Below are positions 1,888-7,095 of a stretch of 64,000 nt of DNA, one piece after another. A model generated the notes under the pieces. That model was not told where the DNA came from. It ran no database searches and saw nothing but the letters and a program-made list of their open reading frames with translations. Each line of letters starts with the position of its first letter. Within the stretch, counting starts at the first letter, position 1. Origin of the DNA: Pigmentiphaga kullae (lineage in GTDB: Bacteria > Pseudomonadota > Gammaproteobacteria > Burkholderiales > Burkholderiaceae_B). Position numbers and translations under genes: made by a program. The stretch covers positions 434,001 to 498,000 of the forward strand of contig NZ_SGXC01000002.1 of NCBI RefSeq assembly GCF_004216695.1. The letters are read 5' to 3'.

Positions 1888-3276
1888 ATGTTGAACAGCG
1901 AACGTCAAGATGCCGCCGATGCGCGGCCCGCCGCGCCGGCACCCGATCCGCAGCCGACCCAGTCGCTGCTGGCCCGCTGGAGCAAATGGCTGGGAGGGCG
2001 GCCCCAGGCGGCCGCCGAGCCGGGCCGCGAGGCCGAGGCCGTCGCCCTGTCCACGCGCGAGGCCAACCGCCAGCGCGCCTTGCTGTTGCCGTGCTTCCAG
2101 GCGCGTCTGACGGACGTCGCGGCCAATCGTGCGGCGTTGGGCTGGCAGGAAGCGTACCGCGCCGCCGATGCCCGGCGCCGGGGCGCCATGCTGGGCATCC
2201 TGGCCGAAGTGGGCGCGTCGGCCGCGGGGCCGTCGGAGGCCGGGGGCAAGGAGACGCCTTCCGACCTGTCGCGCGCGCTCTCGCATGCCCGGGTCCGTTT
2301 CTTCAAGCGCCTGAACGCCTTGCCCGATGGCCTGCCTTTCCTGCTCGAACTGCGCACCGACATGCTGGCCTGGCGCGCGAAGATCCCCGCCCTGCAAGGG
2401 CTGGACGGCGACCTGGAAGGCCTGCTGTCGAACTGGTTCGACGTGGGCCTGCTGGAGATGCGGCGCATCACCTGGGATTCGCCCGCCTCGCTGCTCGAGA
2501 AGCTCATCATCTACGAGGCGGTGCACGAGATCGCCTCGTGGACCGATCTGCGCAACCGCCTGGATTCCGATCGCCGCTGCTACGCGTTCTTCCACCCGCG
2601 CATGCCGAACGAGCCGCTGATCTTCGTCGAGGTCGCGTTCTGTGCGGACATGGCCGGCAACGTGCAGGGCCTGCTGGACGAGGGCGCGCCCATGGAGAAC
2701 CTGGACAAGGCGCGCTGGGCCATCTTCTATTCGATCTCGAACACGCAGCAGGGTCTGCGCGGCGTCAGCTTCGGCAACTTCCTGCTCAAGCGCGTGATCG
2801 AGGAACTGAACGGCGAACTGCCCAAGATCAAGCGTTTCGCCACGCTCTCGCCCATACCGGGGTTTTGCGACTGGGTCAGGAAACGCGGCGCCGAGGACCT
2901 CGCCGCCATTGTCCGCAAGGAAAAGGCCGGCCTGGAAGGGGCCACCGGCGTCCAGGTGCTGGCCGCCATCCAGCAGGCGGTGGACGACGAGGCCGCGCCG
3001 CCGGCGGTGCAGGGCGTGGCCATGCGGCTGGCGGCGCGCTACCTGGTCGAACGCAAGGGATCGCTGCCGCTCGATTCGGTGGCGCGCTTCCACCTGGGCA
3101 ACGGCGCCCGCATCGAACGGTTGAACTGGAAGGCGGACACGTCGCGCAAGGGCCGGGCCCAGTCGTGCGGCATGATGGTCAACTACGTGTACGAACTGGA
3201 TGCGCTGGACGAGAACCTGGCCCGGCTGGGCGAGGGGAAGCCCGAGACCAGCAGGGGAGTGGCCCGGCTGCTTTGA
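1888..3276 (+). CDS. matA: Malonyl-CoA decarboxylase
   Basis: Cytoplasmic enzyme converting malonyl-CoA to acetyl-CoA and CO2, the second step of malonate catabolism. The 462-residue protein matches the MCD family in length and layout: a helical N-terminal half and a GNAT-fold C-terminal half. The catalytic serine of the family is expected at S321 in ATLSPIPGF, and the catalytic histidine at H402 in VARFHLGNGARIERLNW; the C-terminal stretch GRAQSCGMMVNYVYEL is also characteristic. GAAGGA precedes the ATG at good spacing. It sits between matR and a Bug binding protein and is followed after 2 kb by matB, which makes its substrate, so both steps from malonate to acetyl-CoA are encoded together. 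Confidence 0.93.
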   Translation: MLNSERQDAADARPAAPAPDPQPTQSLLARWSKWLGGRPQAAAEPGREAEAVALSTREANRQRALLLPCFQARLTDVAANRAALGWQEAYRAADARRRGAMLGILAEVGASAAGPSEAGGKETPSDLSRALSHARVRFFKRLNALPDGLPFLLELRTDMLAWRAKIPALQGLDGDLEGLLSNWFDVGLLEMRRITWDSPASLLEKLIIYEAVHEIASWTDLRNRLDSDRRCYAFFHPRMPNEPLIFVEVAFCADMAGNVQGLLDEGAPMENLDKARWAIFYSISNTQQGLRGVSFGNFLLKRVIEELNGELPKIKRFATLSPIPGFCDWVRKRGAEDLAAIVRKEKAGLEGATGVQVLAAIQQAVDDEAAPPAVQGVAMRLAARYLVERKGSLPLDSVARFHLGNGARIERLNWKADTSRKGRAQSCGMMVNYVYELDALDENLARLGEGKPETSRGVARLL

Positions 3277-3361
3277 TCCGCGTACGCGCCCCGAAGGAAT
3301 CCATCAGAACTGGCAAGAGCCAGCGTGTAGTACCTTCATACGAAAAGAAAGGAGACGGGAG

Positions 3362-6761: not shown

Positions 6762-7095
6762 GCGCCCGTGACGAAATTGGTAGACGTAGCGGACTTCCGT
6801 AAGAAGTGGAGTGCCCTGGACGAAAGTCCGGGAGTAGAACCCGTCAAATTCGGCGAACCCCTGGCACGGGAACGCCGAGCCAAGCAGGCGGCCGATGTTG
6901 GCCGCCGGGCGTGTGTAGAGACTCGACGGCGGGGACCTAAGGCTGGCGCGGCAATCCTGCCGCGCGACGCGATGGTCAAGGCAGAGTCCAGACCCCAAAC
7001 GGCATTGCCCCGCGCAATCCGGCTGCGCGAGCAGTAGCGGGTAAGAAAATCCGCCGCCGCAAGGCGTGCCGGTTCGATTCCGGCCGGGCGCACCA
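6762..7095 (+). tRNA. tRNA-Leu(UAA), split by a group I intron
   Basis: Two exons (6762-6796 and 7046-7095) join to a complete class II tRNA with encoded CCA. The acceptor arms GCGCCCG (6762-6768) and CGGGCGC (7085-7091) pair perfectly. The D stem ACG/CGU encloses AAAUUGGUAGA, typical of leucine tRNAs. The anticodon stem GCGGA (6789-6793) pairs with UCCGC across the intron and leaves the loop C-U-U-A-A-A-A, with anticodon UAA. A long variable arm CGCC-GCAA-GGCG is followed by the T arm GCCGG-UUCGAUU-CCGGC. The discriminator A and CCA (7093-7095) complete it. The intron falls between U34 and A35, the same position as in cyanobacterial and plastid tRNA-Leu(UAA). The product reads UUA (and UUG by wobble), codons that are rare in a genome this GC-rich. 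Confidence 0.95.
6797..7045 (+). ncRNA. Group I self-splicing intron (IC3-like) in tRNA-Leu(UAA)
   Basis: A 249-nt ribozyme with all core helices readable. P1: exon/intron ACUUC pairs with GAAGU. P2: 6814-6821 with 6826-6832, closed by a GAAA tetraloop. P3: CCCGUC 6840-6845 with 6925-6934. P4: UCGGCG 6850-6855 with CGCCGA 6873-6878. P5: CCC/GGG. P6a: GGCGGCC 6887-6893 with GGCCGCC 6900-6906. P7: GACUC 6920-6924 with GAGUC 6984-6988. P8 insertion: 6946-6953 with 6958-6965. P9 hairpin: 7012-7016 with 7024-7028. The R and S elements read GUGUAGAGACUCGAC and UCAAGGCAGAGUCC, close to what I recall of the Azoarcus tRNA-Ile and Anabaena tRNA-Leu introns. It ends in the required G (7045). There is no room for a homing endonuclease gene, so mobility would have to be assisted in trans. 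In-frame reading across it is meaningless. Confidence 0.95.

Follow-up and report, generated by a model that had tools for sequence, protein, structure and literature searches.

The stretch of DNA analysed here (64 kb, referred to as the window) carries a tRNA-Leu(UAA) gene which, according to ARAGORN with introns allowed, occupies positions 6762-7095 of the forward strand and is interrupted after nucleotide 35 by an intron of 249 nt (Table 1). Default ARAGORN, which does not consider introns, calls no tRNA in the 64-kb window, and ordinary annotation could therefore miss the gene. The intron lies between U34 and A35 of the tRNA, i.e. at the cyanobacterial-type site, and a reading of the sequence indicates that the exon joint cannot slide, since C follows U34 while the intron-final G precedes AAAA. 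This terminal G (omega-G, base 7045) is invariant in all 11 members of the window's genus, and the U34.G wobble at the 5' splice site is likewise present in 11/11 genus sequences. A first-pass annotation of the sequence had proposed a group I intron with these exact ends, a tRNA that folds once the insert is removed, and an insertion point shared with cyanobacterial tRNA-Leu(UAA) genes; ARAGORN returned identical coordinates and closes the tRNA when the intron is left out, and the site corresponds to that in the cyanobacterial loci of our genome scan.

Table 1. Exons, intron and intron helices of the tRNA-Leu(UAA) gene in the window.
Feature	Position	Strand	Basis
5' exon of tRNA-Leu(UAA), last base U34	6762-6796	+	ARAGORN with introns
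Group I intron, 249 nt, final base G (omega-G)	6797-7045	+	ARAGORN, genus alignment, covariation, covariance model
3' exon, first base A35, CCA encoded	7046-7095	+	ARAGORN with introns
P1: exon C32 U33 U34 and C6797 with 6808-6811; U34.G at the 5' splice site	6794-6811	+	Paired in 11/11 genus sequences
P2, GAAA tetraloop 6822-6825	6815-6832	+	94.8% of cells paired; no double-change pair (genus)
P3: 6840-6845 with 6928-6933	6840-6933	+	Double changes in 5/6 pairs (15 introns), 1/6 within genus
P4: 6849-6855 with 6873-6879, around P5 (6859-6861/6868-6870)	6849-6879	+	Both structure alignments
P6/P6a	6880-6913	+	Both-side changes in 3/9 P6a pairs (genus)
P7: 6920-6924 with 6984-6988; pseudoknot with P3	6920-6988	+	Double changes in 3/5 pairs (15 introns), 1/5 within genus
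P8, CCUAAG 6936-6941 and GAUGG 6971-6975	6934-6977	+	Both structure alignments
P9.0 (6992-6995/7039-7042); P9 (7001-7008/7014-7020); P9b (7023-7026/7031-7034), GCGA loop	6992-7042	+	Genus structure alignment

The structure from P1 to P9, with helices named by hand, was evaluated over 87 pairs in the 11 genus sequences, where 97.0% of cells are paired and 15 of the 87 pairs show double changes, as compared to 6.6 in shuffled alignments (none of 500 shuffles scored as high); the count of further pair types in the same alignment was no better than in shuffles (225/500). P1, P5 and P6 never vary within the genus and are consequently neutral evidence there. In the core of 15 introns drawn from several genera, 98.8% of cells are paired and double changes affect 13 of 28 pairs (6.2 in shuffles), and the minimum free energy of the tRNA plus intron has a z-score of -3.59 relative to 100 shuffles. 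The core by which a group I intron is defined, consisting of P3, P4, P6, P7 and P8 with the P3/P7 pseudoknot, is thus found at the locus, and the earlier proposal that all helices from P1 to P9 can be paired is borne out. P7 is taken as the guanosine site, and the CCUAAG and GAUGG segments of P8 closely resemble an 11-nt tetraloop receptor. The small size, the tRNA host, the GAAA loop in P2 and the P8 motif were all observed; by resemblance the intron would be a compact group I ribozyme of the IC3 type.

At gathering level, Rfam matched nothing in the region or in the whole genome. A targeted search with RF00028 gave 20.9 bits (E 0.0057), short of the curated cut-off of 50 bits, which is a detection threshold and not a defining trait of group I introns. 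In a control on nine loci at E 0.01, two cyanobacterial introns reached 83.5 and 82.9 bits and an Ile2 intron 64.5 bits, four further tRNA introns (L064, L060, L046 and L012) scored between 30 and 42 bits, all below 50, and no match was returned for L077 (a Ser intron) or for the window's own intron (L001). The low score is common to sister introns and therefore appears to be a weakness of the Rfam model. Since Rfam is silent at its cut-off, covariance models were built from relatives: R1 from 15 introns, six of which belong to the window's genus, and R2 from 40 introns, none of which do, their rows having been put in register by R1. R2 matches the window's intron at 95.9 bits (E 3.5e-24), which is its sole match in the 64 kb at E values up to 10. 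The Rfam check suggested for the first-pass annotation thus yielded nothing at the gathering threshold and only a weak targeted hit; R2, built from introns outside the genus, does recover the intron.

Based on these findings, we conclude with high confidence that the anticodon loop of what is apparently the only tRNA-Leu(UAA) gene contains a compact group I ribozyme, presumably capable of splicing, which represents one branch of a large proteobacterial family. The intron very probably cuts itself out of the RNA. In the route that the fold suggests, the arms of the tRNA would hold the exons together, CUU of the anticodon loop would pair in P1 with GAG of the intron, thereby placing the U34.G pair at the 5' site, a guanosine bound in P7 would attack after U34, and the freed U34 would then attack after the terminal G, joining the exons and releasing the intron. 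The group I mechanism is outlined in PMC3984707 as a guanosine-started reaction of two transesterifications with exon joining. From the sequence, P10 is apparently weak or absent, as GGAGU is not preceded by a U-run that could pair with AAAA, whereas several sister introns have one. Such a weak P10 fits the need of the Anabaena tRNA intron for exons paired in the anticodon stem, as worded in a title cited in PMC3984707. With only 249 nt, the intron has no room for a homing endonuclease.

A zero-mismatch pattern for the uninterrupted Leu(UAA) loop was found in none of the 11 genus genomes, as opposed to 42 of 50 other genomes, at least two of the 42 not being intact genes (a 5' remnant in G026 and an intron start mimicking the loop in G043). 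Nine genus genomes match the pattern only at Leu(CAA), with one mismatch, and G005 and G009 have no match; a spare Leu(UAA) gene could escape these searches if very divergent or situated in an assembly gap. As the intron is present in 11/11 genus genomes and no uninterrupted Leu(UAA) gene was matched, splicing is very probably needed to read UUA, a codon that accounts for 5 of 1926 Leu codons in the 46 window ORFs picked by third-position GC. The low Rfam score might suggest instead that the intron is a degenerate, non-splicing remnant and the gene a pseudogene; this we consider hardly credible, because the core is conserved with compensatory changes across the 11 genus genomes, the acceptor and T stems of the tRNA covary (helices 1 and 18 of the genus alignment), and no other gene was matched for UUA. 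UUA decoding in the whole genus probably depends on a ribozyme that is missed by the default tRNA scan and by the Rfam cut-off.

Within the genus, the intron-bearing genes share 75-100% identity, and in 10 of the 11 genomes the same AMP-binding enzyme gene adjoins the tRNA gene; our best explanation has the intron inherited within the genus. Near full-length matches to the gene were obtained in 11 of 268 family genomes, all from this genus, with partial matches (68-75%) in 11 more, and the 368 other genomes of the class contained no near full-length copy and two partial matches. R1 detected introns in 32 of the 200 genomes sampled from the order, in 49 of the 151 from the family (the window's genus contributing six of the 49) and in 39 of the 398 from the phylum, shares which are probably low owing to the genomes sampled and the strict scoring filters. 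The kinship in kind with other proteobacterial tRNA introns that had been proposed from the core motifs is substantiated by these matches in order, family and phylum, while the notion that a betaproteobacterium is an odd host is not upheld, given the frequency in the family and the occurrence of such introns in Leu(CAA), Ser(UGA), Thr(UGU), Arg and Ile2 genes also.

Regarding the surroundings of the gene, a repeat search of positions 5500-30000, aimed at elements that might integrate at the gene, returned no tRNA-end repeat among the 20 of 31 repeat families listed. Directly after the tRNA, from 7096 to about 9150, GC content is low (47% over the first 1.5 kb, relative to 68% for the window); this stretch contains a 599-aa ORF, where a weak pectate-lyase-like match was obtained below the cut-off; among the 11 genus genomes, the first 1.5 kb of this stretch is shared only by G007 (98.7%). 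Two other tRNA loci were noted in the course of the survey. At G000:C1:2507010-2518542 (L031, L032), an intact tRNA-Leu(CAA) gene and a copy of its own 3' end lie about 11.4 kb apart, an arrangement that could stem from the integration of an element, and in L041 (G026) a 5' remnant of tRNA-Leu(UAA) is situated around position 190, shortly before an intron-bearing tRNA-Leu(UAA) gene at 374-692.

Concerning the descent of the intron, a tree was calculated from 100 introns chosen from the loci collected, with 10 of the 117 genome-scan loci representing the cyanobacteria and plastid introns lying outside the set. The alignments comprised 144-145 columns, and the bootstrap was unsettled in the 100-row tree. 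A reduced tree of 82 rows was obtained by dropping 18 rows, either because of their long branches or as members of groups that were removed entirely (L155, L151, L164, L167, L184, L085, L081, L082, L080, L079, L083, L084, L087, L089, L093, L046, L170 and L147). In the 100-row tree, the window's genus forms one clade (100/100), the cyanobacterial introns are united in another (100/99) that excludes the window's intron, and a third clade (100/99) unites one unassigned row with the introns that we term type B, i.e. proteobacterial Leu(UAA) and Leu(CAA) introns of the same family. A single clade of all Leu introns is rejected by both the full (p 0.003) and the reduced set (p 0.0002), and the shared 34/35 site therefore does not signify one exclusive lineage. 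The neighbours of the genus differ between the two trees and have weak support in each (48/0 in the reduced tree), and approximately unbiased tests gave p 0.387 for the genus with the type B clade and p 0.317 for the genus with a five-row clade. Mean core identity of the window's intron is 70.6% to 40 proteobacterial Leu(UAA) introns, 70.3% to 12 Leu(CAA) introns, 70.3% to seven Ser(UGA) introns and 61.8% to the 10 cyanobacterial rows.

These values bear on the possibility that the intron arrived recently, site included, from a cyanobacterial (or plastid) tRNA-Leu(UAA) gene. Such an origin would account for the features shared with the cyanobacterial introns of the scan, namely the gene, the 34/35 site and the GAG triplet preceding P2, and an exclusive clade of the genus with the cyanobacteria is not rejected by the full tree (p 0.158, from few columns). 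It is nevertheless very unlikely, as the cyanobacterial introns stand in a separate clade, the exclusive clade is rejected by the reduced, 82-row set (p 0.028), core identity to them is the lower one, and the intron is as GC-rich as its host (66% as against 68% for the window). Most likely, the window's intron belongs with the proteobacterial introns, as a lineage of its own. The question that had been posed, shared descent or transfer between phyla, is answered in part: there is no sign of a recent cyanobacterial transfer, while exclusive kinship is disfavoured by the reduced tree only. A contig labelled Tatlockia from a metagenome-assembled genome (L206) carries a tRNA-Leu(UAA) intron of cyanobacterial look and is likely a binning error.

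The host tRNAs of the related introns were examined in 134 loci (L060-L193), a few of which duplicate earlier ones. ARAGORN called an intron-bearing tRNA in 130 of them, the exceptions being L063, L153, L178 and L180; as some of its anticodons were shifted, the joints were read by eye. The intron follows base 34 in Leu(UAA), Leu(CAA), Ser(UGA) and one Thr(UGU) gene, base 36 in Arg(CCU), one Arg(UCU) and Ile2(CAU) genes, and base 33 in a second Ile2(CAU) set. The Ile2(CAU) introns after U33 are those of L083, L084, L086-L093, L152, L154, L179, L183, L188 and L191, and those after U36 belong to L080-L082 and L171. Leu(CAA) genes with an intron after C34 comprise L100, L101, L102, L104, L105, L106, L109, L110, L112, L113, L115, L116, L122, L149, L158, L181 and L182, together with L012 and L040; in these, a C-G pair would take the place of the conserved U.G at the 5' splice site.

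The triplet immediately before P2 tracks the host tRNA. It is GAG in 54 of 55 proteobacterial Leu(UAA) introns (the window's genus accounting for three), 10/10 Ser(UGA), 17/17 Leu(CAA) and 1/1 Thr(UGU) introns, GGG in 23 of 24 Arg(CCU) introns and GUG in the four Ile2 introns with the U36 site (4/4). GAG also precedes P2 in all 108 sorted loci of the genome scan, which among the 80 of 117 titles listed are cyanobacterial except for L205 and L215 (window's genus) and L206. Since the sorting left out nineteen tRNAs and each triplet is expected in roughly every second random 34-mer, only the joint triplet pattern counts. We tentatively suggest, as a possibility rather less than even, that the proteobacterial tRNA introns are one roaming family that enters anticodon loops by guide-matched reverse splicing, with CUU-GAG serving Leu(UAA), Ser(UGA) and Thr(UGU), drift to Leu(CAA) with a splice-site C-G pair, GGG serving Arg(CCU) and GUG serving Ile2(CAU). 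The window's genus would hold its own lineage of this family, and this lineage may have entered together with a foreign tRNA gene that took the place of the native gene. The introns of Leu, Ser, Thr, Arg and Ile tRNAs, whose guides vary with the anticodon loop, constitute a natural data set on how endonuclease-free introns move.

Acquisition of the whole tRNA gene with its intron from another betaproteobacterial family, with loss of the native tRNA-Leu(UAA), is compatible with the ribozyme reading favoured above; the sequence comparisons are suggestive of it, and we give it somewhat short of an even chance. It would account for the restriction of near full-length copies to the genus and for exons that differ from those of sister genera, the best match among 76 compared (three own-genus rows aside) being 87% identical and from another family, and a core of the 5' exon (29/29 nt) recurs in only one other family among the 200 order genomes. 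Furthermore, Leu(UAA) lies near Ser(UGA) in some relatives (10 of the loci L061-L193, and L056), and 10 of the 11 genus genomes have a Ser(UGA) gene next to which no tRNA was called. However, exons and intron have their closest relatives in different groups, only part of the family has the Ser and Leu genes as neighbours, and G010 lacks a clear Ser(UGA) match. Outside the genus, moreover, the 3' exon is closest to the family's Leu(CAA) gene (92%), which would also suit local divergence or gene conversion.

In comparison with known systems, the cyanobacterial tRNA-Leu(UAA) introns resemble the window's intron in terminal G and core plan, besides gene, site and guide triplet, but differ in their separate clade, their lower core identity and their Rfam scores (83 bits for the two tested versus 20.9). 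Type B introns share the site, a similar size (230-252 nt for Leu(CAA)) and the P3-P8 plan, and are distinguished by forming a separate clade and by their P7 (GAGCA/UGCUC, against mostly GACUC/GAGUC in the window's genus). The Azoarcus tRNA-Ile(CAU) intron is small and GC-rich with a core like that of the window's intron, although it resides in another tRNA, and three Ile2 rows of our tree with the U36 site (the Azoarcus sequence not knowingly being in the set) fall in another clade than the window's. A gammaproteobacterial tRNA-Leu(UAA) intron was reportedly described by Vepritskiy in 2002. The Azoarcus intron is named in PMC3984707, and PMC8450103 mentions tRNA-Ile2 genes with group I introns in several species of Acidovorax and Burkholderia. 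PMC4853749 describes putative group I introns in tRNA-Leu-TAA and tRNA-Arg-TCT of Beggiatoa/Thiomargarita, which by that description concern the same kind of host gene in Pseudomonadota and were missed by annotation, their hosts being Gammaproteobacteria. The tRNA-Arg(CCU) intron of Bartonella bacilliformis, which according to PMC7717549 self-splices in vitro and splices in vivo, is similar by description in occupying an unannotated tRNA gene and differs in its tRNA; Arg(CCU) introns of the present survey, unlike the window's, are inserted after U36 with GGG before P2. Considering the Ile2, Leu-TAA and Arg-TCT introns in PMC8450103 and PMC4853749, the window's intron is a further case of a known kind. 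In open-licence papers, searched without naming each gene, we encountered no report of introns in proteobacterial Leu(CAA), Ser(UGA) or Thr(UGU) genes, and within that literature the range of host tRNAs is the part not previously met.

Mobile replicons were also surveyed. A near-match search of plasmids with the window's gene gave no match, while a distant-match search found 13 records matching over 80% of the gene at 65-71%, namely nine Mycetohabitans (70-71%) and four Bradyrhizobium records (65%); intron-bearing tRNA-Leu(UAA) genes are located on such large replicons in L061 (a Mycetohabitans megaplasmid) and L062 (a Bradyrhizobium plasmid). None of 18 matching phage records covers 80% of the gene; of the 15 listed, two align with part of the core and the others with the tRNA 3' end. 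Plasmid pCTX-M3 (NC_004464.2; L060, positions 2996-3294) carries a tRNA-Leu-like gene with a group I intron that scores 101.2 bits with R1 and 36.8 bits with Rfam, is situated close to aac(3)-IId and an AAA ATPase gene, and is absent from the PLSDB gene table, which holds no RNA genes. Matches to at least 80% of its 299 bp occur in 1257 of 72,556 plasmid records and in 624 of 5,426 complete E. coli genomes, and in the 100-row tree this intron groups, weakly, with introns from outside the window's class. In phage cr116_1 (L063, positions 1501-1720), a group I-like core lies between two stretches annotated as DNA polymerase I, which also enclose an ORF of unknown function.
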